From contig CANFRC010000013.1 in NCBI GenBank assembly GCA_947449315.1, positions 39,003-103,002 on the forward strand: a stretch of 64,000 nucleotides of DNA. The letters are read 5' to 3'. The notes under the pieces are model-generated. The model saw only the letters and a list, made by a program, of their open reading frames with translations, had not been told where the DNA came from and did no database searches. The first letter of the stretch is position 1, and each line of letters opens with the position of its first letter. Below, piece after piece: positions 29,240-57,477 of the stretch. The stretch is from Bacteroidota bacterium (lineage in GTDB: Bacteria; Bacteroidota; Bacteroidia; 2-12-FULL-35-15). Both the position numbers and the translations under genes were made by a program.

Positions 29240-29990
29240 AATAGCTTCCGGCTTTTAAAATATAGAATCCCGAGTTTAAGTAATTGACATTAGAAGCATG
29301 GTAGTGATAAATGCCATTAGGGAAGTCTTGTGTAGGTCCGAAGTGACCGCCATATCCATCCAAGGTAGGATAAACGCCTGTGGTGTCTTTTCTTCCATAA
29401 ATGGGATAGCCATCGCGAAGGAAACCTATCAATTTAGCATCATCAACCGAAGTGTATTTACCAGTTGTATGATAATGATATTCTCTGCTAGGAGCCGGGT
29501 GTGCGCCTGCGTTATCAAACGTAGTAAGCGTCATGGCTTCGAGCGGAATATTACCTCCTTCCCGGTCGTTGTAAATAGCAACACCATTTAAAGCCATTCC
29601 AATTTCACCTAATGAAGTAGCCTCTTTCGAGCTAGCTTCGTCGGGGTTACTAGGAATGGTCATTGATAAATTTTGAGCAATCATTGACGTATTGGCATTA
29701 GGGGCATGGCCTGAAGGAAATGGTTCATATAAGGCATTTCCTGTACCCCAATAGGGCGTTTTATGGTCAGGTAGCCCATTGCTTTTTAATGTGATGCTAC
29801 TCGTATTACCACTTCCGCTTGTTGAGATACTCACAGCACTTGAAAAGCGTAATTGAACCACACTTGTAACTGAAACAGCACCTGTTGAAATGATAGTACC
29901 AGAAGAGTTGCTATTCTTTTTACAGGCATAAATAGTCATAGATGCAAGCACTAAACTTATTGCGATGATTACAGATTTAATATTTTTCAT
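29211..29990 (-). CDS. YHYH-domain lipoprotein, first gene of a SCO1 operon
   Basis: The protein has 259 residues with a lipobox MTIYAC (Cys 23). The YHYH domain spans about 75-250, with YHYH at 171-174 and again at 228-231. DGYPIYG at 194-200 and PNGIYHYH are the conserved blocks. The domain (PF14240) has no established function. The many His and Tyr, the SCO1 partner and the shared ECF promoter (30018-30045) make metal binding plausible. A larger paralogue with a T9SS tail lies at 53089-54453. Confidence 0.85.
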   Translation of the reverse strand: MKNIKSVIIAISLVLASMTIYACKKNSNSSGTIISTGAVSVTSVVQLRFSSAVSISTSGSGNTSSITLKSNGLPDHKTPYWGTGNALYEPFPSGHAPNANTSMIAQNLSMTIPSNPDEASSKEATSLGEIGMALNGVAIYNDREGGNIPLEAMTLTTFDNAGAHPAPSREYHYHTTGKYTSVDDAKLIGFLRDGYPIYGRKDTTGVYPTLDGYGGHFGPTQDFPNGIYHYHASNVNYLNSGFYILKAGSYYGNKGTFTN

Positions 29991-30017
29991 TCGGTGACGA
30001 TTTATTGGTACATAGTT

Positions 30018-30045
30018 TAGACGTTTATCTTTCTTATTCCCTTCG
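30018..30045 (-). promoter_or_regulatory. Copper-type ECF promoter of the YHYH-MORN-SCO1 operon
   Basis: On the minus strand CGAAGG (30045-30040), 16 bases, CGTCTA (30023-30018). It is identical in both hexamers and in spacing to the four other sites at 42530, 54471, 56914 and 57450. The -10 ends 27 bp before the ATG at 29990. Confidence 0.8.
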
Positions 30046-30097
30046 CTAAGAATGAATTTCTTTTGTTCTGAATTTTAGAAGTACTTTTCGGATCAGC

Positions 30098-30325
30098 TTA
30101 TTTCGGATTTTGTTTTGTTTCTTTTCTAATAAACCCAAAATAGAAACTTAGCAGAAAGAACACAAAATGAATCCAACCACGAATGGCGAGAAATTCATGC
30201 GACATGGTGCCGCCAAGAAAGGGAAGATCGATCTTATACCAGGCGAAATACCAACTCGCGCCTGCCGTTACAAAAAAGGCGCCAGATAAGAATTTGCAAA
30301 CCTCACGCCAATTAATTTTATTCAT
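30098..30325 (-). CDS. Small membrane protein, unknown
   Basis: The protein has 75 residues and two membrane segments, about 10-28 (CKFLSGAFFVTAGASWYFA) and about 46-65 (IRGWIHFVFFLLSFYFGFI). It lacks a signal peptide. Codon choice looks normal. I do not recognise the family. It lies between the copper operon and the YfiT-like gene on the same strand. Confidence 0.6.
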   Translation of the reverse strand: MNKINWREVCKFLSGAFFVTAGASWYFAWYKIDLPFLGGTMSHEFLAIRGWIHFVFFLLSFYFGFIRKETKQNPK

Positions 30326-30385
30326 AGCTTAGGTAAACGTTAGATGAAATTATTATTCCTTCAGAGGGTCCTAATATTCTTTATC

Positions 30386-30922
30386 TTAAAAATTACCCCT
30401 TGCCTTTTTCGCTAATTTAATGTGCGCCAAATGCTGCCTACAATGCCAAGCATATAAGCCCATATTTTCTTCGATACTAAACTCTTTCTTGTACTCTGGA
30501 TGGATATACGTACGCTTCAATTCCGTTTCACTTAATTGTTTCAACAAGGCTACCCAACGATGGTGTACGCCCTCTATAATTTGCAATGAAGCGTGTATAG
30601 GGAATTGTTTGGTGTCGATTAAATCTGCCCAAAGATCTTGCATATAAGGCTTTATCGTTGGTTGCTCTTCTGTTAAGGTGAGCTTAAGTCGGATGAAACT
30701 GTTCATATGACTATCAGCACAGTGATGTACTATTTGGCGGATAGTCCATCCCCCCGGACGATATGTGCTTTCTAATTGCGCATTGCTAAGCGTCGAAACC
30801 TCTTTGCTTATATTTAATGGAAAGTTTTCTAATATGTCAATCCATTCACTTAAATGTGCTTGCGTAATGACAGCAGGTTTAGAAAAAGGTCCAATAGGGA
30901 ATTTTAGTTGTTGAAGATCCAT
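30386..30922 (-). CDS. DinB-superfamily YfiT-like metal-dependent thiol transferase/hydrolase
   Basis: The protein has 178 residues from the ATG at 30922. An upstream TTG lies inside the promoter box TACATTTG (30933-30926) and is rejected as start. LKFPIGPF at the start, GGWTIRQIVHHCADSHMNSF (metal His about 67) and a C-terminal YAWHCRQHLAHI (two further metal His about 160-164) give the three-His site of DinB/YfiT (BstA) proteins. The substrate is unknown. The promoter is so close that the mRNA must be nearly leaderless. Confidence 0.85.
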   Translation of the reverse strand: MDLQQLKFPIGPFSKPAVITQAHLSEWIDILENFPLNISKEVSTLSNAQLESTYRPGGWTIRQIVHHCADSHMNSFIRLKLTLTEEQPTIKPYMQDLWADLIDTKQFPIHASLQIIEGVHHRWVALLKQLSETELKRTYIHPEYKKEFSIEENMGLYAWHCRQHLAHIKLAKKARGNF

Positions 30923-30972
30923 TTTCAAATGTAAAGATATTTTTAATCACTCCAACTGAGTAGCTAAAATGC

Positions 30973-33174
30973 TTATCTAATAAGCGTTATAGATCCATAA
31001 ATACTTTTCTCCTCTTGCGAAGCTGCTTTATAATTTATTAAGTATACATACACGCCGACAGGACAATCTACTCCTTTTTGTTTACCATCCCATTTGTCGG
31101 ATAGTGATGTTGTTTTGAAAATCACTTCACCCCACCTATTGAATATCTGTAAATTAAAATTCTCATAAGAGCAATTGCTGAGTCCATTGAAATTATCATT
31201 CAATCCGTCTCCGTTAGGTGTGAAGGCTTTAGGGACATACACAATGCATTCTTCTGAATTGCTTTCGCACGCTCGAATGGTAATAGTTTTTAGAAAAGTG
31301 TCCGTACCGCAAGGAAAATTTACAATTGAACGAATAGTATAGGTTCCAATACTTGAAAATTTATGTGTGGGCGAAAATGAATTAGAGGTATTGTTTATAC
31401 CGCTTGCAGGGTCGTCAAAATCCCATTCTATCGTAGATATAGCAGCATTTGTTGTAGTTGAAAATTGAATTTCATTCTCTAAACACTGGTCATTCGAAAA
31501 AATAGTTCCCTTGCAACACAAGCCAATTGCAATTCTTCTACAAACAGTGGAGACTGGAAATCCTGGTTCTTGAAATTTAACACAAACAGTATATTCGCCT
31601 GGTGCAGAAAAAGTATGTGTCGGGAAAGCAGAGGCACTCGAACCTGTTATAGTAATCGTGTCGTTTGTTCCACTCGCAGGGTCTCCAAAGTTCCAAAAGA
31701 AATAAGGTGAATTGCTCGTTCCAACGGCTTGCAATGAAAGTGTGGCTGGCCCCTCACAAGTATCGCCCGCGATTTTAATTCCCGTAATACCTGCAGCGCC
31801 GTTACAATTGATAATGGATTACGTTGGCAATGTTAATGTCTCGATACCACAGGTGTTTGTAATCACCGCTGTCACCGTATAGTTACCCGCTTGTCCGTAT
31901 GCATGACTAGCGGTAAGTCCTGTTATTGTATTATTCGCACCCGACAGTGGGTCACCGAAATTCCAGCTTACGTTCGCTACTCCGTTTGTGCTTAAAAGGG
32001 AAAATTGAGTAGTGGTTCCTAAGCAAGAATCTGAGGCGAGTATCAAATTAGCCGTAATACTAGGATGATCGCTCGCGTAATAAACCCATTTAGGTAAGCC
32101 ATATCCGCCGCCAGCACTTTGATTGGCAATCGCATTTTGTTGGTAGCCACAGGCTCCGCCTAATTTATTCGGACAGTTAATCACATCAATCGAACCTGCA
32201 TTGATATAAATTCTGTCATCTATTCCTAACTGTAATGCTGCATGCTGTACAAAGCCTGGAGAAGTTAGTTGATAAACGGAATTTTGTATCGTAGTCGGAT
32301 TGCCAGAAGAAATATCGTATTGATAGATGTCGCTTAGATTGCTGATATATAATACGCGTCCATTAGGTGAAAATTCAATTCCATAAATCAATGGACTCGC
32401 TAAATTATAATTCCAAGTGACAAGATTAGAAACGACACCTGTTGTGTTGTTGAAGTCGTATAACTCCATGGCAGAGCTGAAAGTGGCACCTATCGCTAGT
32501 TTGTTAAATTGGCGGTTGATTTTCATATGACCAGCACCGTTCGCTTGTGCTGCGCCAATGGTGGAGATTACGGGCGTTGTTTGGATGCCTGCGTTGGTAA
32601 TTTTAAAGGCAATGAAGTCGCTACCGCTGTGCGTAAGCAACCAGTAGCTAAGTTTGTCAGAAGCGGGAACTACTTCTAGTTTTTCAGAAGTTGTTTGATA
32701 GAGTGGAATGTTTTTTTGTCCGGCGACTACATCTCCCAAACCTCCATTCAACCCAATATCAACAACACTATATCTAACTCCATTGCTCGACGATTGCTCG
32801 TCAATTGTCACTATATAATACAATTTACTATTGCCAGGTTTTGGAATAATTACTGCAGCAGTGGTGGAGGATAGCAGCGCTGGAGTTCCGCCCAGTAAGC
32901 CCGTTCCATTAGGCATTATCTGGTTGTTGGCATTCCAAACAGTTACGCCATCGGTATAAAACAATAAGGCTCCTGTATTTCGGTCAGAAATAGTGGCACT
33001 GCCTTCAGATGTAGCTATTGGCGAGCCCGCTACGAAGGTAGGCGGACTGCTGCTAAAGTCTAGCCCACCACCATTACCAAAGCGCCATTGATTGTTTTGT
33101 CGCTGCGCAAAAGAAGGGGAGTTACTTAACACCCACAAGAATAGCAATAGGAATTTGAGCTTTTTCATATTCAT
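30973..33174 (-). pseudogene. T9SS type B surface protein gene broken by an in-frame stop
   Basis: Two open frames, 31819-33174 (451 aa) and 30973-31734, lie in the same reading frame. They are separated only by the TAA at 31821-31819 plus 28 open codons that translate sensibly. The codon would be CAA (Gln) with one change at 31821. The N-part has a signal peptide, WRFGNGGGLDFS (about 27-38) and a propeller-like region, then PKD units (SWNFGDPLSGANNT). The C-part continues with PKD units (FWNFGDPASGTNDT) and ends in the gliding-type tail VPKAFTPNGDGLNDNF. It is either a recent nonsense mutation, a stop read through in part, or a sequencing error. Confidence 0.85.
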
Positions 33175-33324
33175 AAAGTACGCTGATCAACTAATAACAA
33201 TAATGCGTTATGGATTGTTCTGTGGGATGTACAAAATGAATGCGATTTTAAATGCCATTTTTTAGCGTGACGTTTACAGGAAGCGTCGTGTTTTGTTTAA
33301 CTTTTTAGGGGGGGCAGGGTAACA

Positions 33325-34110
33325 TTAAAAATTATAACTCGCTCCCAACACGAAGGAGCTAACGAATAATTTGTTGTAGACATTTCCTTTTTCACTACCT
33401 ACACCAGAGAAAAATCGATAGCCTGATTTTAACGTGAGCTTATTGGAAACCTTATAATTCAAACCACTCAGGTAGTCTATCGCGCCACCAGTATTGTCTA
33501 CATAAAATACGTCTCCGTCTATCAAGATTCCTACCTTGGAGGTGATTTTATAATCTAGAAAGGTGTTGATTAGCGGCACGAACCCGCGATTGTAATTGCG
33601 TTCGTATTTCGTTCCTTGCTTAAGTGAAAATTCAGCGTCCCGAAGGTTAAGGGTCAATCCTATTCCAAGTTTTATTTTATCTGTGTTTTTAAGATAATAT
33701 CGATAGGTAAGTCGATAACCTGAAAATTTATAGAAGCCCTCCGTGCTTGTATTTGCAGGAAAAGTATTGCTGTTAAAGACCACTGCTGAAGAAAAGCTTC
33801 CAGTGGTTTTGTATTGTAAAGGAGCCGCGAGTAGGCTTATTACATGTCGTTTGCTTTTTCCAAAGGTATAGCTCGCACGAAATCTTATTAGAGGCTTAGC
33901 TTGATTTTGAAAATCGTTGGCATACGAAAATAAAGTTCCGTCTTTACCATTTAGTTTGCCGGAACTATTTTGCCAGGAACTACTCGCATCGTTGCGATTA
34001 ACGAACAAAGCGCCTGTTTCAAGGTCTATGGATGCTTGTCCAAAGGCTGACGATGTGATTAAGCTCGTTAGAAGAAGTATTAATTTGAAGGAGAGTATTT
34101 GTCGAATCAT
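33325..34110 (-). CDS. Outer-membrane beta-barrel protein, unknown
   Basis: The protein has 261 residues: signal peptide about 1-25 (SLITSSAFGQA), then alternating aromatic/polar strands such as IRFRASYTFGKSK, YRLTYRYYLKN and a final SFVLGASYNF, whose terminal Phe is typical for insertion by the BAM complex. No family was recognised. It stands alone upstream of the broken surface protein gene. Confidence 0.65.
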   Translation of the reverse strand: MIRQILSFKLILLLTSLITSSAFGQASIDLETGALFVNRNDASSSWQNSSGKLNGKDGTLFSYANDFQNQAKPLIRFRASYTFGKSKRHVISLLAAPLQYKTTGSFSSAVVFNSNTFPANTSTEGFYKFSGYRLTYRYYLKNTDKIKLGIGLTLNLRDAEFSLKQGTKYERNYNRGFVPLINTFLDYKITSKVGILIDGDVFYVDNTGGAIDYLSGLNYKVSNKLTLKSGYRFFSGVGSEKGNVYNKLFVSSFVLGASYNF

Positions 34111-34222
34111 AATAAAACAACAAAAGAGCTGGTAAAATGTTTGTAGACTGATTCTAAAATTAAATTTGGTTTATAAGGTAAACTAAATTATGTTTGTAAC
34201 CTAAATTCTAAAATTAGTCAAT

Positions 34223-34795
34223 ATGGAACTCGAAAATCAACAACAGCTCGATTTGATTGCACAGACGATCAAAATGGCACAGCGTCGGTTTTATAACGAT
34301 AGCCCGTACTACATTCTGTGGGGGAGCGCCGTTTTCGTTGCAAGTATCGTGCAGTATATTTTATTACTAAAAGCACCAGATTATAATGCCATTCCTTGGG
34401 CCGTCTGTATCCCAATGGCATTGATTTTACAGTTTGTTTTGATTCGTCGTCAGAAGAAATCTGAAAAGATTAAAACGCATATTGAGACACTTCTAAATAC
34501 TATGTGGATGGCTTTTGGAATAACCTTGTTTATTCTACTTAGTTTCTCTGCTAAACTGGGTTTAAATACCTATCCTGTAGTACTTTGCCTGTATGCAATC
34601 ACTACATTTGTTTCGGGAACGGCCTTCAAAATAAACGCATATTTAGTAGGTGCCATTGCCTGCTGGGTATTGGCGATTCTAGGCTTTTTTGTCGACTTTC
34701 AATATCAATTATTATTATTGGCGGCAGGCGTTTTATTGGCGTTTATCGTGCCAGGTATTATCTTGCGTCTGCGTGAAAAGAGTGAAATAAACTAA
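34223..34795 (+). CDS. Polytopic membrane protein paired with an HTH regulator
   Basis: The protein has 190 residues and about five to six membrane segments: around 31-50 (YILWGSAVFVASIVQYILLL), 55-75, 95-115, 118-138 and 145-180. No enzymatic motif. Its stop is directly followed by the ATG of the helix-turn-helix gene (no gap). Membrane protein plus wH regulator pairs of this kind are frequent in Bacteroidota; the membrane partner may be the regulated target. Confidence 0.75.
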   Translation: MELENQQQLDLIAQTIKMAQRRFYNDSPYYILWGSAVFVASIVQYILLLKAPDYNAIPWAVCIPMALILQFVLIRRQKKSEKIKTHIETLLNTMWMAFGITLFILLSFSAKLGLNTYPVVLCLYAITTFVSGTAFKINAYLVGAIACWVLAILGFFVDFQYQLLLLAAGVLLAFIVPGIILRLREKSEIN

Positions 34796-35095
34796 ATGGT
34801 ACAACGCATGTTTCAAAACCTCGATCCACTATTGCATTCACAACTCCGGCTTGCCATTATTTCCATTTTGGTAAGTGTGGAAGTAGCGGAGTTTGCTTAT
34901 TTGAAAGAGCAGACGAAAGCTAGTGCAGGTAATATAAGTGTTCAGTTAGAAAAGTTACAAGAAGCAGGGTATATCAAAATTGAAAAAACCTTCAAAGGAA
35001 AATATCCGCTCACCAAATGTACTATTAGTAAAAAGGGTATTAAAGCTTTTGAGGAATATGTGAAAGTCATACAACAGTATATTAAGCCGAAGTAG
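34796..35095 (+). CDS. Winged-helix transcriptional regulator with altered 3' end
   Basis: The protein has 99 residues and resembles the winged-helix DNA-binding family HTH_34: LDPLLHSQLRLAIISILVS, then ASAGNISVQLEKLQEAGYIK (recognition helix about 41-60) and the wing TFKGKYPLTKCTIS. It ends IQQYIKPK. The last 23 bases of the gene recur at 36050-36072, where the frame reads IKPKK before a stop. The Fic gene sits between the two copies, so the present C-terminus probably results from an insertion. Confidence 0.85.
   Translation: MVQRMFQNLDPLLHSQLRLAIISILVSVEVAEFAYLKEQTKASAGNISVQLEKLQEAGYIKIEKTFKGKYPLTKCTISKKGIKAFEEYVKVIQQYIKPK
35070..35092 (+). repeat. 23-bp direct repeat, left copy, end of the regulator gene
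   Basis: The sequence begins TACAACAGTATATTAAG and ends CCGAAG. An identical copy is at 36050-36072, 980 bp downstream. The unit between them carries only the Fic gene. Confidence 0.85.
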
Positions 35096-35152
35096 TATAA
35101 TAGATTCCTCAATGAATAATTATTAGTGAAATGTTGTTAAATTAAGCTTGAA

Positions 35153-36037: not shown

Positions 36038-36049
36038 TGATTGATTGGT

Positions 36050-36072
36050 TACAACAGTATATTAAGCCGAAG
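36050..36072 (+). repeat. 23-bp direct repeat, right copy
   Basis: It is identical to 35070-35092. After this copy the frame continues AAATAA, restoring a plausible original regulator end (IKPKK stop). It begins 13 bp after the Fic stop codon. Confidence 0.85.
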
Positions 36073-36152
36073 AAATAATCGATTTAATACGTGGGAAAAT
36101 CCTAGAAATTCTTGCGCTAATTTTCCGACCTTCGTCCTTAAATACTAGAGTA

Positions 36153-36881: not shown

Positions 36882-36887
36882 GGAGCG

Positions 36888-42529: not shown

Positions 42530-42557
42530 CGAAGGATTACAAGATTAATCACGTCTA
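42530..42557 (+). promoter_or_regulatory. Copper-type ECF promoter of the multicopper oxidase gene
   Basis: CGAAGG (42530-42535), 16 bases, CGTCTA (42552-42557), followed by 25 bases to the ATG at 42583. Both hexamers and the spacing are identical to the other four sites. Confidence 0.8.
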
Positions 42558-42582: not shown

Positions 42583-44298
42583 ATGCGTCATTTCAAAGTT
42601 ACTTCTCTAATATTCATTTGCTTATTACTTGTAGCAAATATCCATGCGCAGACTTATCAAGCCTTGCGTATTCCAGATACTTTGAGTGGTACGACCTTTA
42701 ATTTGGTTATGAAGGATACCTTCAAACAAATTTTAACGGGGCAGCAAACCATTACTGGTGGCATTAATGGAGATTTCTGGGGACCAACATTAATCGTGAA
42801 CAAAGGTGATTTGATTCACATGAATGTTCGCAATAAAATGAATGATACGACTACACTACATTGGCATGGAATGCATCTGCCTGCCGTAATGGATGGAGGT
42901 CCTCATCAAACCATTCCTCCTGGGGTTTTATGGCAACCCTTTTGGACAGTTACCAATAACGCGAGTACATTATGGTATCATCCGCATTTACATGAAATGA
43001 CCGTTGAACATTTAATGAAGGGTCTTGGTGGATTGATTATTGTACGCGATACGGATGAAGCTAAACTAGCGCTGCCACGTACCTATGGTGTCGATGATAT
43101 CCCTGTTATTTTAACAAGCCGTCGTTATGATGCGAACAATCAATTTGTGGTACAGAACGTTTCTTATGGAGATTATATGCTTACCAATGGAACACCGAAT
43201 GCAGCGGTGTCTTTACCGAAGCAGTTTGTTCGTCTACGAATTTTAAACGTAGAAATTGAAAGAGGTTATGATCTTGGTTTCAGCGATAATAGAACCTTTT
43301 ATGTGATAGGCAATGATGGAGGCTTGTTAAATGCTCCAGTACCTGTTACGCGTGTAAAATTATTAGTTGGGGAACGTGTTGAAATTCTGGTGAATCTTAG
43401 CAATGATGCGATTGGTTCTTCCTTTGATTTAAAAGCATATAACTCCAATCAAGCCTTCGGTTTCCCTGGTGGCGAGCCCAATACCTCTGGGCAGTTTGGT
43501 AGTTTGTTGAATAATATCGATTTTCCTGTTTTGCACATAAATGTAGCGGCTTCGACAGCAAATCCTATCACTGCATTGCCGAGCATTTTGATAAATAATA
43601 CCTATTGGACTGCAGCGAATGCTACCGTTACTAGAAATATTGCCATCACCAACGGACAGCCTGGTCCGGCAAGTGTTCCTTTCAATTTTGATAATGTCTC
43701 TTTTGCAATTAATACAATTAATAAAACGGTTCAAAAAGATGCGATTGAAAAGTGGACGGTGACAAATAATAATGTATTTGGACATACTTTTCATATTCAT
43801 GATGTAGAATTTAAAATAGTAGCACGTAATGGAAATGCAAGTTCAGTAGGCGCTTACGAAAGCGGTTGGAAAGATGTGATGTATGTACCTCGTAATGAGA
43901 ATGTTTCTTTCGTAGCTCGTTTTACAGATTATGCGGATCCTATTCATCCGTTTATGTATCACTGCCATTTTTCTAATCATGAAGATGGAGGTATGATGGG
44001 GCAATTTGTAGTGGTAGATACCACACAGACAGGTACACAGACGGTATTTAATGAAAATGATTTTGTGGTATATCCGAATCCCGCTAGCAGTCGGCTTTTT
44101 GTGAAATTTAATGATATAAATACACGTGCTTATTATATACGAATTACGAATATTTTAGGTAGAACATTAATGATGTTGCCACAACCGGAATTAAGTAACG
44201 GAGTTGATATTAGCCTATTGCCAGCTGGTACTTATTTTATGCAGTTGACAGATTTAAAGACCAAGTCAACTGTCGTTAAAAAATTCGTCGTTGAGTAG
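42583..44298 (+). CDS. Multicopper oxidase with T9SS type A tail
   Basis: The protein has 571 residues with a signal peptide at 1-22. Three cupredoxin domains carry all four copper motifs: HWHGMH (93-98), WYHPHLH (131-137), HTFHIHDVEF (about 398-407) and HCHFSNHEDGGMMG (about 464-477), whose C-H-x3-H-x4-M gives the type 1 site. The C-terminus (VYPNPASSRLFV to KKFVVE) is a T9SS sorting domain, so the enzyme is outside the cell. Likely activity is oxidation of Cu(I) or phenols. It is driven by the ECF promoter, and a thioredoxin-like gene follows after 26 bp. Confidence 0.94.
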   Translation: MRHFKVTSLIFICLLLVANIHAQTYQALRIPDTLSGTTFNLVMKDTFKQILTGQQTITGGINGDFWGPTLIVNKGDLIHMNVRNKMNDTTTLHWHGMHLPAVMDGGPHQTIPPGVLWQPFWTVTNNASTLWYHPHLHEMTVEHLMKGLGGLIIVRDTDEAKLALPRTYGVDDIPVILTSRRYDANNQFVVQNVSYGDYMLTNGTPNAAVSLPKQFVRLRILNVEIERGYDLGFSDNRTFYVIGNDGGLLNAPVPVTRVKLLVGERVEILVNLSNDAIGSSFDLKAYNSNQAFGFPGGEPNTSGQFGSLLNNIDFPVLHINVAASTANPITALPSILINNTYWTAANATVTRNIAITNGQPGPASVPFNFDNVSFAINTINKTVQKDAIEKWTVTNNNVFGHTFHIHDVEFKIVARNGNASSVGAYESGWKDVMYVPRNENVSFVARFTDYADPIHPFMYHCHFSNHEDGGMMGQFVVVDTTQTGTQTVFNENDFVVYPNPASSRLFVKFNDINTRAYYIRITNILGRTLMMLPQPELSNGVDISLLPAGTYFMQLTDLKTKSTVVKKFVVE

Positions 44299-44324: not shown

Positions 44325-44930
44325 ATGAAGCCTGTTCGTTATTTTATTTTGATATTTAGTCTGTTCGCAACCCTCTCTTTTGTTGCGCGAAAGAACACGC
44401 ATATTGGTCGTGCCGTGAATGACTTTCAGCTTCGAAATACCAATGGAACCTCTACTTCATTGGCTTCGTACCCTAATGCGAAAGGTTTTATGATTGTTTT
44501 TACTTGTAATCATTGTCCGTTTGCAAAATTATATACGGAACGATTCAATCAATTGAATGAAAAGTATTCCAAATTAAATGTTCCCTTGTTAGCAATTAAT
44601 TCGATGGATACCTTTGTGTATGAGGAGGAGACTTTTAAGTTGATGTGCGATAAAGCCAATTCCGAACAATATCTTTTCCCTTATTTGTATGATAATATGC
44701 AGACGGTCGGTAAAGACTTTCATGCCGAACATACGCCACATGCTTTTGTGATATGGAAGGAAGCAGGAAAATGGATTATTCGTTATAGTGGTGCTATTGA
44801 TGATAATGGTGAGCATCCTGAATTAGCAAAACCAATGATGGCGAATGCTGTTGATGACTTATTGGCTAATCGCCTGGTTCAAGTACCAGAAACAGCTTCT
44901 TTTGGCTGCGCTATTTTTTATCGGAAGTAG
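44325..44930 (+). CDS. Exported thioredoxin-like (redoxin) protein
   Basis: The protein has 201 residues with a signal peptide at about 1-20. The redoxin domain follows (NDFQLRNTNGTSTSLASYP, then FTCNHCPFAKLY, with the C-x2-C at about residues 65-68). This CNHCPFA subgroup of AhpC/TSA-like proteins is common in Bacteroidota. It probably reduces disulfides or peroxides in the periplasm. It probably shares the transcript of the multicopper oxidase and so the ECF promoter. Confidence 0.85.
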   Translation: MKPVRYFILIFSLFATLSFVARKNTHIGRAVNDFQLRNTNGTSTSLASYPNAKGFMIVFTCNHCPFAKLYTERFNQLNEKYSKLNVPLLAINSMDTFVYEEETFKLMCDKANSEQYLFPYLYDNMQTVGKDFHAEHTPHAFVIWKEAGKWIIRYSGAIDDNGEHPELAKPMMANAVDDLLANRLVQVPETASFGCAIFYRK

Positions 44931-47838: not shown

Positions 47839-47880
47839 AGTCTAGCAACAAAGCAGCTTTATTTTTGTATTTTTGAAATA

Positions 47881-49764: not shown

Positions 49765-49768
49765 AAAA

Positions 49769-49893: not shown

Positions 49894-49937
49894 AATTACA
49901 TGCAAACTATTTCGCCGAGATTCCTTTGCCACGCTAT

Positions 49938-51378: not shown

Positions 51379-51388
51379 GTTATTTTTT

Positions 51389-51856
51389 TTAACAGCAGCC
51401 TGAGCCAGGGGTACAAGTTGAACTTGGATTGCCTACTTGAATGACAATTTTTGGTTTTACATGGGGTATACCGCATTTGTCTTGCGCTAAGCAATCCGTA
51501 TGTTTTGCTGTAAGGTTGAAAAATGTCCCATTAAATGAAAGGCCATATTTTCCAATAGTTTCACCTTGATACTCCGCTTCCATTTCTAATTCTTCCAGTT
51601 GAAAGAGTTTATTGGAGGCTTCTAAAATGCCTTTCCATTTTTTAGGGGATAGTCGATGTTCTACATCATCTGCAACCCAAATTTGAAAGGTTGCTTTGAT
51701 TTCCTTGCGTTGTACCGTTCCGCAGTCGATATATTCTTTGGTGTTTTTCGCCACTTCTGTTATGTGAAAATGACCAGGGATATATTGTCCATTCGGCAAC
51801 TGAAAAACAAGATGCTGAATAGTGTCTAGGATTTGAATAAGTTCTTGGTATTTCAT
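51389..51856 (-). CDS. DUF6428 family protein of the arsenic operon
   Basis: The protein has 155 residues, cytosolic. LPNGQYIPGHFHITEV (about 19-34) is the most conserved block. The C-terminus is cysteine-rich (DCLAQDKCGIP, then CTPGSGCC at the end), which suits As(III) binding. The family is regularly found in ars operons of Bacteroidota; its activity has not been shown to my knowledge. It starts one base after arsR ends. Confidence 0.82.
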   Translation of the reverse strand: MKYQELIQILDTIQHLVFQLPNGQYIPGHFHITEVAKNTKEYIDCGTVQRKEIKATFQIWVADDVEHRLSPKKWKGILEASNKLFQLEELEMEAEYQGETIGKYGLSFNGTFFNLTAKHTDCLAQDKCGIPHVKPKIVIQVGNPSSTCTPGSGCC

Positions 51857-51857
51857 T

Positions 51858-52184
51858 TTAACAACATTTAGAAGGTGAAGTATAGGTGCTGAGTTGATTA
51901 AGAAAATCGGATAGAGTCTGAATTGTTTTCTGTTCTAGACAATAGCAAATGCTGTTTCCTGCAATAGACCCTTTAATGATTCCGGCAGCTTTTAATTCTT
52001 TAAGATGCTGTGAGATTGTCGCTTGGGCAAGTGGAAGCTCGTCTACAATGGTGCCACAAACGCAACTTTGCTTCTTTAATAACAGTTCCACAATGGCTAT
52101 CCGTGCAGGATGCGCAAGAGCCTTAGCGATCAACGCTAGTTGGTTTTGCCTTTTCGTGAATGCGCTTGATTTAGATGCTCCCAT
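51858..52184 (-). CDS. arsR: ArsR-family arsenite-responsive repressor
   Basis: The protein has 108 residues. Winged helix with LALIAKALAHPARIAIVELL, KQSCVCGTIVDELPLAQATI and SQHLKELKAAGIIKG (recognition helix about 56-66). The CVC motif (about 40-42) is the classic As(III) sensor. An additional SKCC end may help. A dyad matching an ArsR operator is directly upstream (52193-52210). Confidence 0.95.
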   Translation of the reverse strand: MGASKSSAFTKRQNQLALIAKALAHPARIAIVELLLKKQSCVCGTIVDELPLAQATISQHLKELKAAGIIKGSIAGNSICYCLEQKTIQTLSDFLNQLSTYTSPSKCC

Positions 52185-52192
52185 AATTGTAA

Positions 52193-52210
52193 TATCGCAA
52201 TATTACGATA
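52193..52210. promoter_or_regulatory. ArsR operator
   Basis: TATCGCAATATTACGATA is an 18-bp dyad with one mismatched pair, starting 9 bp upstream of the arsR ATG. ArsR proteins bind such dyads over their own promoter and leave when arsenite binds. Confidence 0.7.
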
Positions 52211-52255
52211 AAAAATTAAAAGGAGGAAGTTTAATTTTTTTTCGAATTTTATCCC

Positions 52256-53056
52256 ATGAAAGGAGGATGGCTATTTTTGATGGTTTTAAGTTTGCAAATC
52301 AGTTTTGTCAAAGCAAATGATAAAAAGGATACGCTCCGCATGCAGAATACCTGGCAGGATTCACTGCCCGCAATGTACTATACTTCGATTTCTGACACCT
52401 TGTTTTATTCGCAGATTATAGTTGATACAAACCAACTAATAATGGATACAAGTCATTTAGTGAAAATAGATTCACATGCCATTTTATATTCTTCAAAGTA
52501 TACGTACCGCATCATGCTTCCTACCTTGCGCAGTAATAGCGCATTGGCAAGTTCGCATTGGCAAGATTATATCGGTTATCATAAGCGCTTAAAAATGTAT
52601 GTGGTGAATGAATGGTATATTACCGGAGATGCGCTCGGAATAGGATCTTTAAGCTTATTTGATATGCGACATGGATATATTTACCCCTTATCCTCGGCCT
52701 ATGACGGAGCATGTAGCGTGCCTGTCCTTAGTCCGAATGGAAAATATATGTTCACCTATGATTACTGTCCGGATTGCCCTGGTGAGGAGTCTTTCGTTTC
52801 CATTTATCAGTTTGAAAAACGAGCAGCTTGTAAAATTAAATTGAAAGGCTGGGTGCGTTTACCCGGCGAAGAATCGCAGGCAGATGACGCTGCTGCAATA
52901 AATGAAATTCATTGGGGCAAGGATGGCAATATCTATATTCGTGCAAGGAAGTTTACTGTATTGGATGCAGAAGCGCCCGCAGACCGTTTTGCTGGTTATA
53001 TCTGCTGTGCGTATTATCGCATTGATATAAAACAAAAAAGCAAGCCTACCGAGTAA
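52256..53056 (+). CDS. Exported protein, unknown
   Basis: The protein has 266 residues with a signal peptide at about 1-21 (WLFLMVLSLQISFVKA). The rest looks beta-rich. Pairs such as DYCPDCPGEESFVS and a final CCAYYRIDI contain Cys that may form disulfides. No family recognised. It is divergent from arsR, but there is no sign of arsenic function. Confidence 0.6.
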   Translation: MKGGWLFLMVLSLQISFVKANDKKDTLRMQNTWQDSLPAMYYTSISDTLFYSQIIVDTNQLIMDTSHLVKIDSHAILYSSKYTYRIMLPTLRSNSALASSHWQDYIGYHKRLKMYVVNEWYITGDALGIGSLSLFDMRHGYIYPLSSAYDGACSVPVLSPNGKYMFTYDYCPDCPGEESFVSIYQFEKRAACKIKLKGWVRLPGEESQADDAAAINEIHWGKDGNIYIRARKFTVLDAEAPADRFAGYICCAYYRIDIKQKSKPTE

Positions 53057-53066
53057 GCTTGCTTTT
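53033..53066 (+). terminator. Terminator overlapping the end of the unknown exported gene
   Basis: A run of A, GCAAGC (53040-53045), an 11-nt loop holding the stop codon, GCTTGC (53057-53062), then T4. It also lies just past the end of the convergent YHYH gene. Confidence 0.7.
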
Positions 53067-53088
53067 CCAATATTGAGTTGCTAAAAAA

Positions 53089-54453
53089 TTATCGCGCGAT
53101 GACAATCCGCTTCGTTACCGTATTCACGCCATCGTTCAGTTGCAAGAGATAAGTGCCATTGTATACCGTCTGTACATCTATATAACTGATCGTACTGCCG
53201 GCAGCAATGCTCGCTACTTTCACCAAACTTCCTTTCATGTCAAACAACTGAATCTGTATACCATGACGATTCATACCATTGAATTGTACCGCAACGAAAT
53301 CTTGCGTAGGTACTGGAAATACATTCACAGAAAAGCTTTCCGGACTAATCACTCCATTTGCACCCGTCGTGTCGATGTATTGTGTTACAGGCTCTGTAAT
53401 GCTCGTTACTTTCGCAGCTGTCTTCACACCATAATACGTTGGTCCGATGACATACGGATAGGCAGAATTCCAATTAGCGTCTACTGTAGCGAAATAGCAG
53501 TAAGTTCCGTTAGGATATTCAGGTGTTACGCAAAAACGACCATTATGCGCATCTAAATAATCTGCTTGACCAGCATGTGCAATCCACTCGTAATCTTCTT
53601 TATAGTGTCCTAACGGATACGTCGTGCTCACGGCAGGACCAGGTGTTACACTTGTTCCATTTGCATAGGTGGTTCTACTTGTGATATTTCTCAACTGATA
53701 GCCCGATTTAATGCGAACGATTCCGCCAGTACCATCTGCATTTGCATAACCGTAAGCCCCATAAATAGGGAAACCATCGTACGCAAAACCAATAAGTGGC
53801 GAATGATGTAAACTGTCGATAGCATATAATCCGTCCGCATCATAAAGATTACAAACGGTCGAAAGCACATTATAATCTAATTTAAACGCGGAAGGATTTT
53901 GGTGATGATGATAATTTCCGTTTGCTGGATGTCCTTTCGAACAGTCGAACCCTGCGCGCTCAGCAACGATCGCATCTCGGTTCCATACGTTTTGACCAGG
54001 AGGACCTTGAATCGGACCACCACCTTCAGCCATTGTTGTATTATTCCACGAAACGCCATCGCGTGAATCAAATAATGCAACACCGTTTGCGAATACTCCG
54101 ATATTACCCATCGTTACAGGTGTTGCAGTGCCGGTATTTTGTGTCGGGTTTAAAGGGAAAGAAAAGATAGCATGTTGGTTCGTTGTCAAGGATTTATTTC
54201 CATCCAAGAATGGCCCAGTCACATAACCTGGAACGCCCGTGGTACGGATATATACTTTCGTCGCGGAATAATACACGGTTTGTACATTGGCACTATCTGC
54301 GTCGTTAATAGCAGTAGAATTCCCTTGTACATAATGTCGGCCTTTCAATCCTGTTTTATTCTGAATCCAGCCTGTGATTGCAGGGTTGCTTACTTGCGCC
54401 TCCGCAAGGAATGTAAGGCAAAGTGAAAAGCTTAAGAAAAGACTCTTTTTCAT
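53089..54453 (-). CDS. YHYH-domain protein with T9SS type A tail
   Basis: The protein has 454 residues with a signal peptide at 1-19. The YHYH domain covers about 75-345: GVALFDSRDG (125-134), GNYHHHQNPSAF (179-190, where the smaller paralogue has YHYH), SPLIGFAYDGFPIYGAYGY and YPNGTYCYF. The end (VNVFPVPTQDFVAV to KRIVIAR) is a T9SS type A domain. It has its own CGAAGG-N16-CGTCTA promoter (54471-54498) and lies downstream of the MbnH gene. I infer a surface copper-related role; the domain itself has no known activity. Confidence 0.87.
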   Translation of the reverse strand: MKKSLFLSFSLCLTFLAEAQVSNPAITGWIQNKTGLKGRHYVQGNSTAINDADSANVQTVYYSATKVYIRTTGVPGYVTGPFLDGNKSLTTNQHAIFSFPLNPTQNTGTATPVTMGNIGVFANGVALFDSRDGVSWNNTTMAEGGGPIQGPPGQNVWNRDAIVAERAGFDCSKGHPANGNYHHHQNPSAFKLDYNVLSTVCNLYDADGLYAIDSLHHSPLIGFAYDGFPIYGAYGYANADGTGGIVRIKSGYQLRNITSRTTYANGTSVTPGPAVSTTYPLGHYKEDYEWIAHAGQADYLDAHNGRFCVTPEYPNGTYCYFATVDANWNSAYPYVIGPTYYGVKTAAKVTSITEPVTQYIDTTGANGVISPESFSVNVFPVPTQDFVAVQFNGMNRHGIQIQLFDMKGSLVKVASIAAGSTISYIDVQTVYNGTYLLQLNDGVNTVTKRIVIAR

Positions 54454-54470
54454 GCGTGATGTTTATTTAA

Positions 54471-54498
54471 TAGACGAATTCAATTTGCATTTCCTTCG
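54471..54498 (-). promoter_or_regulatory. Copper-type ECF promoter of the YHYH/T9SS gene
   Basis: Minus strand CGAAGG (54498-54493), 16 bases, CGTCTA (54476-54471), then TTAAAT. Seventeen bases separate it from the ATG at 54453. It lies in the 49-bp gap after the MbnH gene. Confidence 0.82.
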
Positions 54499-54502
54499 GT
54501 CT

Positions 54503-55510
54503 TTAGTTTTTAGGTTCGCTATAATTTTTGTTGAACACAAAAATTCTATCATTCAAGGTAAGCAAAAAAGCGATGATATCTGTCCGTTCTTTATCACTTA
54601 ATGGAATACCAGCACGTAGGCCTTCGTCTAAATTCGGATGTTGTACTATTCCTTTGGTATAATGTTTTAATACACTTTGCAAAGAGTTAAATCTTCCATC
54701 ATGCATATAGGGGTAGGTATAGCTCAAATTACGTAAGGAAGGTACTTTAAACTTTAAAGAGTCACTTGATTTTCTTGAGATGCGATAACGACCCACATCG
54801 TTCAATTCTGGGTTTACCGCTAATCCATTATCTGCAAATTGATGGTTCGTAAAAAGAGGTTCGGTATGACAACGATTACAATGCATACTAAACAATTGAT
54901 AGCCGCTTTGCTCCTGTGCGTTAAAGTTTGCTTTTCCCAATTTAACACTATCATACTTGCTGTTCGTACTTACTAAGGTTAATTGAAACGATTGAAGTGC
55001 ATTTAAGAATTTTTCGCCTGTGATAGGGCCTTTGCCATATGCAGTTTGAAAGGTACTTACGTAAGATGGATTCGCTTCTAGCTTTTGTAATACATGATTT
55101 AATTTTTCATCCATCTCAATTTTGTTTTCAATAGGCGCCAATGCTTGCGCATCTAAATGGAAGGAAGCGCCATCCCACATTAATTCCTTTGACCAAGCTA
55201 GATTGAATAGGGCAGGAGCGTTTCGTGTACCAATGCTGTCGTAGATACCATGACTCAGCGCATGATCTGTATGAGCAAAGGCATGATAGGAGTTATGACA
55301 GGATGCGCAAGAGATTGTATTGTTTTTCGATAGGATAGGGTCGTAAAAAAGCTTTCTTCCCAATTCAACCTTCGCTCGCGTTAGCTGGCTCACTTCCACT
55401 TTGTAAAAGGGAGCATTAAAGTAACTTGGTGCTTTCCAAACAGGGTTTTCCCACCGCACAAAGGATAGGCAACAAGTAACAAAAATAGTAAGCAGAATTA
55501 AGAAACGCAT
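54503..55510 (-). CDS. MbnH-like dihaem cytochrome c peroxidase family protein
   Basis: The protein has 335 residues from the ATG at 55510, which shares one base with the MbnP stop; a longer frame to 55528 is less likely. Two haem sites, CASCH (68-72) and CNRCH (211-215), place it in the MauG/cytochrome c peroxidase family; a third region, YPYMHDGRF (about 270-280), is typical. The pairing with MbnP indicates the MbnH branch, which oxidises a tryptophan of MbnP to kynurenine to create a copper site. Signal or lipoprotein start at about 1-15. Confidence 0.9.
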   Translation of the reverse strand: MRFLILLTIFVTCCLSFVRWENPVWKAPSYFNAPFYKVEVSQLTRAKVELGRKLFYDPILSKNNTISCASCHNSYHAFAHTDHALSHGIYDSIGTRNAPALFNLAWSKELMWDGASFHLDAQALAPIENKIEMDEKLNHVLQKLEANPSYVSTFQTAYGKGPITGEKFLNALQSFQLTLVSTNSKYDSVKLGKANFNAQEQSGYQLFSMHCNRCHTEPLFTNHQFADNGLAVNPELNDVGRYRISRKSSDSLKFKVPSLRNLSYTYPYMHDGRFNSLQSVLKHYTKGIVQHPNLDEGLRAGIPLSDKERTDIIAFLLTLNDRIFVFNKNYSEPKN

Positions 55511-56199
55511 CAGTGAATAAAAAAGCAATGTGCAAAGGAAGTAGCTATGCTAGCGGCTTTTGTGCCTGGTAGTTGAACGTGTGCCACCTCTCGTAGAAGA
55601 GCTTCTTGTAAAACTTGTTCTAAATGTAAATCAATATGAATAGTATTCGAGGACGCTATGTTTAATCGAACTTCGTTACAAGTGTTTTCATAAAAGTGAT
55701 AACCGCCAATATGGTAATGGAACTCGGTTTTAGGCCTTTCTTTTATACATAAGGGAGAATAACCCTCTAGTTTAAAATTGATATAGCCACTTTGCCAACT
55801 CCAATACATTTCATTCGAAGGGTCTAAATCGCCTTTCTCAATGCCTTTCATACTCGTGGCGCTGTCGATGCCTATTAGAAAACGAACTTCGCTAAATACG
55901 ATTTCTTTTCTTGTTGTAAAACGAACTTCGCTCTTCGCACTGTCGGATAGATCAATTAAATGACCAGGTGCTTTATCGCGGTATACGCAGCGTCCGTCTT
56001 GATACAGTTCTACATGAGAAATATAAAAACGAACTTTTGTAATGCGCGTGTTAGTGGGATTAGTGATAGCGGTATCAGACGTCGCTAAAGATAATGGGTT
56101 GCCGTTAAAACTGCCTTTAAATCGGAGACGGAGTTCCGTTTTAGCAATACCTTTAAGGCTGCATGTGGCCAGTAAAATTAAAATAAGATAAGATCGCAT
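55510..56199 (-). CDS. MbnP-like copper-binding protein
   Basis: The protein has 229 residues with a signal peptide at 1-19. The family core NEMYWSWQSGYINFKLEG (129-146) is clear and holds Trp 133 and 135. FHYHIGGY (160-167) supplies His residues. TRITKVRFYISHVEL (51-65) is also typical. MbnP binds copper once a Trp has been modified by MbnH. One-base coupling to the sensor gene before it and to MbnH after it shows one operon. Confidence 0.9.
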   Translation of the reverse strand: MRSYLILILLATCSLKGIAKTELRLRFKGSFNGNPLSLATSDTAITNPTNTRITKVRFYISHVELYQDGRCVYRDKAPGHLIDLSDSAKSEVRFTTRKEIVFSEVRFLIGIDSATSMKGIEKGDLDPSNEMYWSWQSGYINFKLEGYSPLCIKERPKTEFHYHIGGYHFYENTCNEVRLNIASSNTIHIDLHLEQVLQEALLREVAHVQLPGTKAASIATSFAHCFFIH

Positions 56200-56669
56200 T
56201 AGTCGTGAGGTGGAGGAGGTGGATGCCCTGCGTTACGAAAGAAATTGGCAAATCGTGGCAGCATGCGCTCAAAGTCATGCAGCTGTTCGCCTTTACAGAG
56301 TGATTTTATTTCTATAAAATGGTTTACATTGACAAGTTCCATCGCACGATGAATCGCCATTATTTGTGAAAGTAATGCGTTAGTCGTAGTCTCATTCGAT
56401 GGTTTTAAACTCGCCACATAATAGGCTTCCTTAGCCGCTATTAGCGAATCTTCTAGCACTTCTATTCGTGCGTGATGTTGCTTCGCTAAGTCGGCTAACT
56501 GTTCCGCTTGCTTGGAATCAAAGTGCAGCTCCTCGGCGATGATATGCTTAGGATCACTTCCATGAGGTGGCCTTGGTGGCAAACAAGGAGTAGATAGACG
56601 AATGAAAAATAAAACATTCGCTATAATTAGGCCAATGACCAAGATATAAAGTATCGTTATTTTATTCAT
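56199..56669 (-). CDS. Periplasmic metal sensor, CnrX/Spy-like
   Basis: The protein has 156 residues from the ATG at 56669; a longer frame reaches 56738 inside the previous gene. Membrane anchor at about 3-23 (ITILYILVIGLIIANVLFF), then a helical periplasmic domain: HIIAEELHFDSKQAEQLADL, KQHHARIEVLEDSL and HFIEIKSLCKGEQLHDFERM, as in CnrX/ZraP/Spy metal-sensing hairpins. The end is HPPPPPHD. It probably senses copper and releases the sigma factor through the small membrane protein. Confidence 0.8.
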   Translation of the reverse strand: MNKITILYILVIGLIIANVLFFIRLSTPCLPPRPPHGSDPKHIIAEELHFDSKQAEQLADLAKQHHARIEVLEDSLIAAKEAYYVASLKPSNETTTNALLSQIMAIHRAMELVNVNHFIEIKSLCKGEQLHDFERMLPRFANFFRNAGHPPPPPHD

Positions 56670-56913
56670 GATATAGCTGCATATGTAATTGTGATTGGAA
56701 ATAATTTTCTTGCTGTTTGCTGTCGGATTTTTTAGCAATTATCACATTCACGCTTATACTGAGCAAAGCTAAGATAAGTAGCGGAAGGATGATTTTAAAG
56801 GATTGTTCTTCCTTTGCTTTCAAGTCAATTTTTTGTTCAATTAAAGCTCGACTATGTTGCGGAGCTGCAATACGTTTGCCTGATTGAAGTAGTTCTAAAT
56901 TTTCCATATTCAT
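56662..56913 (-). CDS. Small membrane anti-sigma factor, CnrY-like
   Basis: The protein has 83 residues. A cytosolic part of about 40 residues (MENLELLQSGKRIAAPQH), one membrane segment at about 41-59 (IILPLLILALLSISVNVII) and a short periplasmic tail give the CnrY layout. It lies 15 bp after the sigma gene and overlaps the sensor start by 8 bp. A CGTCTA -10 element abuts the ATG, so an mRNA from it would begin near Met 3 (56907). Confidence 0.75.
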   Translation of the reverse strand: MNMENLELLQSGKRIAAPQHSRALIEQKIDLKAKEEQSFKIILPLLILALLSISVNVIIAKKSDSKQQENYFQSQLHMQLYHE

Positions 56914-56941
56914 TAGACGCTCTTTTTATTATTTCCCTTCG
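56914..56941 (-). promoter_or_regulatory. Copper-type ECF promoter inside the sigma operon
   Basis: Minus strand CGAAGG (56941-56936), 16 bases, CGTCTA (56919-56914). The -35 lies in the last codons of the sigma gene (EGK stop). The -10 touches the anti-sigma ATG. It could supply extra anti-sigma, sensor, MbnP and MbnH relative to sigma. Confidence 0.72.
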
Positions 56942-57441
56942 AAAATAATATTGATTTTTAATTTACTTTTTGCCCTGCTTAAGAGTGATTCAACTGCTTT
57001 TTCTGAAATCCCTAAAACACTTGCACACTCTTTCATACTCAGTCCTTCGATCTTTACTAATAAAAGGGCACTTTTCTGCTGCGGTGAAAGCTTGTTGATT
57101 TCATCAAAAATGAATTTTACACTTTCTTGCTGCTCAAGTGCAAAACCAGGATGATTCCAGGTATTGTTTTCTCTTGTATTTTTCTCTGCGAAGAAGAAAA
57201 GTGCTTTCAACGCATCCTTTCGTTGTTTGCTCCGCAAATAATCGATACAACGATTAACGGTAATTCTATAAATCCATGTTTTTAAACTCGATTCCTCTCT
57301 AAAGTCTTTGTGCTTAGCATGTATTCGTAGGAATACGTCCTGCATGATTTCCTCCGCATCTTCTTGATTTTGCACATGGTGGAATGCAAGACTAAAAACT
57401 AGGTCTTTGTGTGCCTCGTAAATTGCTAGAAAATCCTGCAT
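56929..57441 (-). CDS. ECF sigma factor of the copper-type regulon
   Basis: The protein has 170 residues. Region 2 at about 10-75 (LVFSLAFHHVQNQEDAEEIM, QDVFLRIHAKHKDF, LKTWIYRITVNRCIDYLRSK) and region 4 at about 115-165 (LSPQQKSALLLVKIEGLSMK and the helix-turn-helix ECASVLGISEKAVESLLSRA). It heads the order sigma, small anti-sigma, sensor, MbnP, MbnH, which parallels cnrH-cnrY-cnrX of metal resistance systems. Its own promoter carries CGAAGG-N16-CGTCTA, so it is autoregulated. Confidence 0.95.
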   Translation of the reverse strand: MQDFLAIYEAHKDLVFSLAFHHVQNQEDAEEIMQDVFLRIHAKHKDFREESSLKTWIYRITVNRCIDYLRSKQRKDALKALFFFAEKNTRENNTWNHPGFALEQQESVKFIFDEINKLSPQQKSALLLVKIEGLSMKECASVLGISEKAVESLLSRAKSKLKINIIFEGK

Positions 57442-57449
57442 CGATTTAT

Positions 57450-57477
57450 TAGACGAAAATTTTGGTTGTAACCTTCG
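57450..57477 (-). promoter_or_regulatory. Copper-type ECF promoter of the sigma gene
   Basis: Minus strand CGAAGG (57477-57472), 16 bases, CGTCTA (57455-57450), AATAAATCG?-type AT-rich stretch, ATG at 57441. With a start site about 7 bases after the -10, the mRNA would be nearly leaderless. Confidence 0.82.

Follow-up and report, generated by a model that had tools for sequence, protein, structure and literature searches.

The window, by which we mean the whole analysed stretch of 64,000 nucleotides, contains five exact copies of the element CGAAGG-N16-CGTCTA. By rising coordinate, element 1 (30018..30045, minus strand) lies 27 bp ahead of a short YHYH gene, element 2 (42530..42557, plus strand) 25 bp ahead of a multicopper oxidase gene and element 3 (54471..54498, minus strand) 17 bp ahead of a YHYH gene with a type IX secretion tail. 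Element 4 (56914..56941, minus strand) overlaps the 3' end of an ECF sigma factor gene and abuts the start of an anti-sigma candidate (gap of 0 bp), and element 5 (57450..57477, minus strand) is found 8 bp ahead of the sigma gene itself. Behind the elements, in this order, are a YHYH-MORN-SCO operon, the oxidase, the YHYH-T9SS gene, the anti-sigma gene and the sigma operon. The preliminary description had placed five copies at these positions and strands, each 0-27 bp from a gene start. An exact search recovers precisely these five, and 100 dinucleotide shuffles yield none.

That the window holds no further copy is true for exact matches, and it extends to the whole genome of the organism (2,613,225 bases in 27 contigs, 99.83% complete), where the window's five are the only exact copies and a backwards control of the element gives 0. 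A genome scan had been proposed earlier; in it the exact sites are not scattered without relation to gene starts, but all lie 0-27 bp upstream of one. With up to two mismatches the window has two sites beyond the five, at 1427 and 59924, against a chance expectation of about 2.1. The same tolerance yields 49 places in the genome, two of them with one mismatch, and neither of these two has an ORF start (ORFs of at least 60 aa) within 150 bp.

The sigma operon reads sigma, small anti-sigma, X, MbnP, MbnH-like, all on the minus strand. Its first gene (56929..57441) encodes an ECF sigma factor of 170 aa that consists of sigma regions 2 and 4 only, both over the Pfam cut-offs (PF04542 70.2 bits, PF08281 59.7 bits). 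The protein has two Cys, no CxC motif and no C-terminal extension. The anti-sigma-like gene mentioned previously can be pinned to an ORF of 83 aa (56662..56913) with one hydrophobic stretch, read by eye as a single transmembrane segment, and no family over cut-off in a Pfam profile search. X (156 aa, 56199..56669) shares the operon with these two. An AraC regulator (57605-58354) adjoins the operon.

The last two genes, which lie downstream within the sigma operon, are not preceded by elements themselves. One encodes an MbnP-family protein with a WSW motif (55510..56199; PF20243 124.9 bits, cut-off 27), the other a di-haem protein with two CxxCH motifs (54503..55510; PF03150 186.1 bits), for which an alternative TTG start at 55528 is possible. 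With a second MbnP model, the NCBIfam equivalog TIGR04052, the MbnP protein stays under the cut-off (35.6 versus 140 bits). For the di-haem protein TIGR04039 is the best NCBIfam match, yet at 210.1 bits it does not reach the cut-off of 362.85; hence we call the protein MbnH-like. The pair resembles known MbnP/MbnH pairs in its Pfam family, the WxW motif and the two CxxCH motifs, but differs in falling below both TIGR cut-offs and in its company, where YHYH, a CnrX-like switch and type IX cargo take the place of methanobactin genes. Later biochemistry of MbnH and MbnP concerns kynurenine and copper.

The remaining units we call satellite units. The long YHYH protein (454 aa, 53089..54453, minus strand) carries both the YHYH domain (PF14240 195.2 bits, cut-off 25) and a type IX secretion tail (PF18962 46.1 bits). 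The multicopper oxidase (571 aa, 42583..44298, plus strand) exceeds the cut-offs of PF07732, PF07731 and, again, the tail family PF18962. Both proteins are accordingly type IX secretion cargo by their Por_Secre_tail, and the genome encodes SprA on contig C4 (2618.6 bits). The oxidase has the copper-ligand motifs HWH, HPH, HIH and HCHxxxH and in this and its Pfam families resembles CueO/CopA-type oxidases; it differs from them by its type IX tail and by a score below the CueO model cut-off (342.4 versus 525). A redoxin of the AhpC/TSA type (44325..44930, plus strand; PF00578 52.8 bits) follows in the same direction and is likely on the oxidase transcript; the pair recurs in loci L074 and L091.

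The third satellite unit, on the minus strand, encodes three proteins with lipoprotein-like signals (read by eye): a short YHYH protein of 259 aa (29211..29990; PF14240 70.8 bits, cut-off 25), a MORN-repeat protein of 207 aa (28616..29239; PF07661 47.9 bits) and an SCO1/SenC protein of 206 aa (27999..28619). The latter belongs to the SCO family by PF02630 (99.5 bits, over cut-off) and by its CxxxC motif, CPGIC. It is alike to known SCO1/SenC proteins in family and ligand motif, but shares its operon with YHYH and MORN.

X is a membrane-anchored periplasmic protein and a likely metal sensor. No Pfam family is over cut-off for X itself, but its sequence profile matches Spy, CnrX and NccX; matches to CpxP and ZraP were found too. 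When the predicted model of X is compared with solved structures by Foldseek, ranks 1 to 9 are all CnrX, with a best E value of 0.0044 and none below 0.001. X is thus predicted, from profile and model, to have the CnrX fold and to be the sensor of the sigma circuit. Conserved across 35 X proteins are His65 (33/35), His117 (33/35) and Cys125 (31/35, missing in four). The Ni/Co ligands of CnrX, which we take to be His42, His46, Glu63, His119 and Met123, are not retained as a set: X keeps the equivalent of His119 alone.

CnrYXH of Cupriavidus metallidurans, a Ni/Co system, and its relative NccX are the closest known parallel: an ECF sigma factor, a small membrane anti-sigma and a membrane-anchored periplasmic sensor in one operon. 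The window system differs by its place in Bacteroidota, its gene order (sigma, anti-sigma, X), its altered ligand positions and its regulated genes (SCO, MbnP/MbnH, oxidase, YHYH). Its anti-sigma candidate also has no detectable sequence likeness to solved CnrY, since a profile search of the PDB gave chance matches only. A second parallel is the copper-dependent ECF sigma factor CorE of Myxococcus xanthus, likewise tied to copper genes. PMC10141476 describes CorE as working through a CxC motif together with a C-terminal extension rich in Cys; the window sigma has neither and is adjoined by an anti-sigma candidate.

To ask what accompanies the element in relatives, we turn to loci of the window's genus, a panel and a set of named loci. 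Some loci stand both among the named loci (L190-L236) and in the panel, L152 and L209 being an example, and the counts of the two sets are therefore not additive. L190-L197, a few named MAG loci with 73-79% YHYH identity, are perhaps closely related to the genus of the window. Across the window and 28 genus loci a looser form of the element has 27 sites, each 0-30 bp upstream of an ORF for an anti-sigma, CotH, YHYH, sigma, oxidase or short YHYH protein; 15 of the 28 genus loci have no such site. A sister form has 15 sites in 36 whole genomes, 14 of them at this locus (control: 2).

In the panel and named loci, the window motif is found upstream of 18 of 68 short YHYH genes, 9 of 15 anti-sigma genes and 4 of 16 YHYH-T9SS genes, compared to 5 of 804 other genes (821 before filtering). 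Near-identical upstream stretches and rows with fewer than 60 upstream bases were dropped, which also left 12 sigma, 19 X, 60 MORN and 47 SCO rows; ORF starts are first ATGs, and some are therefore wrong. The enrichment peaks at a 16-base spacer. No MORN or SCO gene has the motif upstream (0/107). At spacer 16 the element is also absent upstream of the sigma genes (0/12), though present in the window, so that these sigma factors may not as a rule regulate themselves.

Base 3 of the -35 box tracks the helix of sigma region 4.2 in 25 of 25 scorable cassettes, a readable match between the sigma factor and one promoter base. The 25 include L166, a weak match (8/11), and 10 of the 11 C-type rows come from one genus and are not independent. 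Of 32 cassettes examined, seven are not scorable: sigma region 4.2 was not found in L087, L196 and L230, and the called anti-sigma start has no clear element in L144, L191, L202 and L219. L133 stands outside the 32; its anti-sigma has the CGAATG form.

Synteny across many genera, motif enrichment with the 16-base spacer and the co-change of -35 base and region 4.2 agree: it is well supported by sequence comparison that the element acts as an ECF-type promoter of the sigma factor encoded close by, with both YHYH genes likely in its regulon. These results speak for the earlier proposal that the sigma factor at 56929-57441 recognises the element. Against it, the strict motif has four sites in 395 sampled genomes of the phylum, not above its backwards control, although three of these four precede oxidase or YHYH genes.

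Across Bacteroidota, the cassette of anti-sigma and sensor adjoins YHYH genes in 14 of 46 named loci and 11 of 23 genus loci, and in two further sets in 2 of 15 and 3 of 20. It flanks YHYH-MORN-SCO in, for instance, Pontibacter oryzae (L212) and Persicitalea jodogahamensis (L206). Many YHYH loci have no cassette within reach; in some Flavobacterium loci the neighbours are a LytTR regulator and a kinase instead. Where the cassette occurs, the anti-sigma candidate retains its place between sigma and X in relatives, and the window sigma falls inside the clade of cassette sigmas. Among the 395 genomes YHYH is found in 39, MbnP in 97 and both in 24, the last figure being a hand count from genome lists.

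Together the five elements are likely parts of a single genetic switch, which is predicted to respond to copper in the cell envelope. We take the signal to be copper, probably an excess of it in the envelope, on two grounds: the regulated genes belong to the SCO, multicopper oxidase and MbnP/MbnH families, and the residues conserved in X are His, His and Cys. At rest, the small anti-sigma would hold the sigma factor at the membrane. Once X binds periplasmic copper, the anti-sigma would let go of the sigma factor, and the freed sigma would increase expression of the operon that encodes it and of the satellite units. Copper binding or copper-site maturation would then fall to SCO and MbnP/MbnH. 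The oxidase and the YHYH protein that carry type IX tails would work on the cell surface or beyond it. The short YHYH lipoprotein may be a His-rich metal-site protein working beside SCO. The YHYH and MORN proteins would act on copper. To this reading as a whole, a sigma switch with a CnrX-like copper sensor and five promoters that drive exported copper-handling proteins including two YHYH proteins, we give somewhat better than an even chance.

A more far-reaching version is tentative and on balance doubtful. Here, a copper switch of CnrYXH layout would be found across the phylum, its core output being a copper system of surface and periplasm that is based on YHYH proteins. These would make up a new family of His-rich copper binders, with a lipoprotein form that partners SCO and a type IX form that lies beside the exported oxidase and is assisted by MbnH; besides the copper sites of MbnP, MbnH might then mature those of YHYH. 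A sigma regulon that ties YHYH (PF14240) to SCO, MbnP/MbnH and oxidase makes the role of YHYH directly testable, and the circuit would be a metal-sensing system of sigma, anti-sigma and CnrX-like protein in Bacteroidota. According to PMC7406223, only 6% of the ECFs in Bacteroidota have a class I anti-sigma as neighbour, and other modes are left open. In the literature searched, mostly open-access papers, we found no link of YHYH to copper and no tested YHYH function. Searches there joining Bacteroidetes, SCO1, MORN and copper, or type IX secretion, multicopper oxidase and copper, or looking for a CnrYXH-type anti-sigma in Bacteroidetes, returned nothing.

The YHYH proteins of the regulon might instead be zinc-dependent hydrolases of the cell surface, linked to copper in expression only. 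This reading is compatible with the sigma circuit proposed above. Published accounts report YHYH from phages and diatoms, and PMC7824862 predicts that three His and one Asp form a zinc site and that the domain serves as a hydrolase in phage tails. Invariant His and Asp in 35 aligned YHYH proteins agree with this, as do CotH and sulfatase genes near some YHYH loci. However, the neighbours of YHYH point to copper, namely SCO (36/46 and 19/20 loci) and MbnH (22/23 and 8/15), and the predicted YHYH model, of only fair quality, has no fold match to a hydrolase. We regard zinc hydrolases as an unlikely reading.

It is quite unlikely that the circuit answers copper shortage, with MbnP/MbnH, SCO and YHYH as a scavenging and delivery set. 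The role of SCO in cytochrome oxidase assembly would fit; against it, CnrX-type sensors fire upon metal binding, and a CueO-like oxidase usually accompanies copper excess. PMC3621798 describes the genes of a CorA/CorB-type pair (a di-haem peroxidase and its partner) as dropping with copper, which would suit a shortage response, but finds MbnP without marked similarity to CorA. The paper also states that, as of 2013, no data tied close MbnP homologues to copper, a point against our main reading.

Nickel, cobalt, zinc or a general envelope or oxidative stress is an improbable signal as well; in that case the copper proteins would make up just one part of the response. Among solved structures, X comes closest in fold to the Ni/Co sensor CnrX, Spy, CpxP and ZraP match too, and a redoxin lies downstream of the oxidase. 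Yet most CnrX ligand positions are altered in X, and the regulated set has SCO, MbnP/MbnH and oxidase, with no Ni/Co efflux family among the family matches of the regulated ORFs searched.

Finally, the element is very improbably an operator or an RNA leader element: its kept position near gene starts and the adjacent AraC regulator would suit an operator too, but two boxes with a preferred 16-base spacer, the joint change of -35 and region 4.2, and the association with sigma and anti-sigma genes in many genera argue for a sigma promoter. Three observations go beyond the preliminary description: the CnrX/Spy-like third gene of the sigma operon, the type IX secretion tails and a second, paralogous locus in the organism's own genome.

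The window has exactly five copies of the motif CGAAGG-N16-CGTCTA, at 30018-30045 (-), 42530-42557 (+), 54471-54498 (-), 56914-56941 (-) and 57450-57477 (-) (elements 1-5), as claimed in the preliminary description; 100 shuffles yield none. The elements were said to lie 0-27 bp from gene starts, and the gaps to the next ORF are indeed 27, 25, 17, 0 and 8 bp. No copy elsewhere in the window had been noticed; with up to two mismatches just two more places appear (about 2.1 matches are expected by chance). The proposed whole-genome scan yields no further exact copy in the window's own genome (2.61 Mb, 99.83% complete), with 49 places in all at up to two mismatches.

The sigma operon starts with the ECF sigma gene (56929-57441, 170 aa), followed by an 83-aa anti-sigma candidate with a single hydrophobic stretch, X (56199-56669, 156 aa), MbnP (with a WSW motif) and an MbnH-like protein (with two CxxCH). 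A YHYH protein with a type IX secretion tail (YHYH-T9SS) comes next, with its own element. Element 2 lies upstream of a multicopper oxidase with His clusters and a type IX tail, with a redoxin downstream of it. The genome encodes SprA, which makes a type IX system likely. Downstream of element 1 lie three overlapping genes, a short YHYH, MORN and SCO1 (with CPGIC), each with a lipoprotein-like signal as judged by eye.

We think it somewhat probable that this is a CnrYXH-like switch, which would sense copper in the envelope, likely its excess, and raise exported copper proteins, the two YHYH forms among them. The sigma circuit is well supported; copper as the metal signal is what we infer. The main rival keeps the same circuit and makes copper shortage the signal. 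We consider this rather unlikely; it is the main rival because a CorA/CorB-type pair (di-haem peroxidase and partner protein) falls with copper according to PMC3621798. The only functional idea for YHYH in the literature covered is a predicted Zn-dependent hydrolase in phage tails (PMC7824862). A literature search that covered a minority of subscription papers found no paper linking YHYH to copper proteins or to a sigma factor.

The motif looks like a promoter read by the window sigma. The looser form CGNARG-N16-CGTCWA was scanned in the window and 28 loci of its one-genus order, which were picked for YHYH (L087 for its exact motif match). All 27 sites lie 0-30 bp upstream of an anti-sigma, CotH, YHYH, sigma, oxidase or short-YHYH ORF; in the genus loci they precede 11 anti-sigma, 6 CotH and 5 YHYH genes, and 15 of the 28 loci have no site. 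A sister form, CGCARGTTTT-N12-CGTCWA, has 15 sites in 36 whole genomes (backwards control: 2), 14 in a cassette/YHYH locus and one elsewhere in the window's own genome.

We also scored upstream stretches in loci from a 395-genome panel of the phylum and in the named loci (L190-L236) against the window's twelve bases, for each spacer from 12 to 20. At spacer 16, at least 10 bases match upstream of 18/68 short YHYH (p 3e-17), 9/15 anti-sigma (p 2e-14) and 4/16 YHYH-T9SS genes (p 1e-5), and of 5/804 other genes. None was found upstream of MORN (0/60), SCO (0/47), X (0/19) or sigma (0/12). For short YHYH the second-best spacer is 17 (5/68), and the remaining spacers give at most one. Scoring was possible for 25 of 32 cassettes: in these, -35 base 3 upstream of anti-sigma is A in all 14 where sigma region 4.2 has KA before the conserved V-E-S, and C in all 11 without KA, ten of which come from one genus.

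Whole-locus scans (1.74 Mb) have a high background: spacer 16 gives 105 distinct matches, 37 of them upstream of YHYH or anti-sigma genes, and spacers 14, 15, 17 and 18 give 58, 81, 65 and 81. A strict form has four sites in 395 whole genomes, as does its control; one lies upstream of the window oxidase, two lie upstream of YHYH genes and one lies away from gene starts.

Window X has no Pfam match. Many relatives found by profile carry PF13801 or PF07813, and PDB matches of the X profiles are Spy, CnrX and NccX. In a Foldseek search with the predicted structure (pLDDT 85.6), the top nine matches are all CnrX chains, at probability 1.00; the best E is 0.0044, and no match falls below 0.001. By profile and predicted fold, X is thus putatively CnrX-like. 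Of the five Ni/Co ligands of CnrX, the alignment keeps just the equivalent of His119 in X; at the remaining four, X proteins mostly have Lys, Ile, Ile and Ile. His65 and His117 are each kept in 33/35 X proteins and Cys125 in 31/35, a set that would suit Cu(I).

The cassette of sigma, anti-sigma and X travels with YHYH. Of the 36 genomes of the order, 23 have YHYH, and the 23 fetched YHYH-T9SS loci include MbnH in 22, MbnP in 19, X with anti-sigma in 11 and sigma in 11. In the panel, 39 genomes have YHYH, 97 have MbnP and 24/395 have both (counted by hand; p 2e-7). Panel YHYH-T9SS loci include MbnH (8/15), MbnP (7/15), X (3/15) and X with anti-sigma (2/15); panel short-YHYH loci include MORN (19/20), SCO (19/20) and X with anti-sigma (3/20). 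Of 47 named loci fetched, 46 have a strong short-YHYH gene, accompanied by MORN in 44, SCO in 36 and X with anti-sigma in 14. These 14, by record title, include Saprospiraceae, Haliscomenobacter, Pontibacter, Persicitalea, Algoriphagus, Arcticibacter, Chitinophagaceae, Cellulophaga and Polaribacter, and ten have a single run in the order sigma, anti-sigma, X, YHYH, MORN and SCO, with L217 and L221 carrying a cut or split sigma. The YHYH-MORN-SCO trio of the window lies about 27 kb from the cassette, and the element is its sole tie to the sigma. In the sigma tree, the window sigma falls within a 10-row group (97/93) containing both sigmas adjoining YHYH-MORN-SCO and sigmas adjoining MbnP/MbnH-YHYH.

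Control of YHYH is not uniform everywhere, because many YHYH-MORN-SCO loci have no adjoining cassette, and a LytTR response regulator and histidine kinase lie near these genes in 14-15 Flavobacterium loci (L205 378-2061 and others), possibly as another control.

Contig C2 of the own genome carries a second, paralogous locus (L074, about 92.5-102 kb), which encodes sigma, anti-sigma, X, CotH/LTD/T9SS, oxidase, redoxin, YHYH, MbnP and MbnH; only its anti-sigma has an element upstream, of the CGCAAG type. The window and C2 sigmas thus probably recognise distinct -35 forms, and this would separate their regulons. On contig C3 (L186, 74330-74357) a close match to the C2 anti-sigma promoter stands by itself, 188 bp upstream of a 133-aa lipoprotein-like ORF. 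Lipoprotein-like ORFs with a 10-11/12 match to the element CGAAGG-N16-CGTCTA 16-20 bp upstream (L192 11430-12013, L196 12070-12726, L198 5607-5897) are possible further regulon members. Within the genus, X and YHYH flank a gene for a CotH kinase/lamin-tail/type IX tail protein (L064 6856-9117 and relatives), and in six loci this gene has a sigma-type element of its own. L155 (10752-12068) and eight other loci have a sulfatase-family gene (PF00884) close to YHYH.
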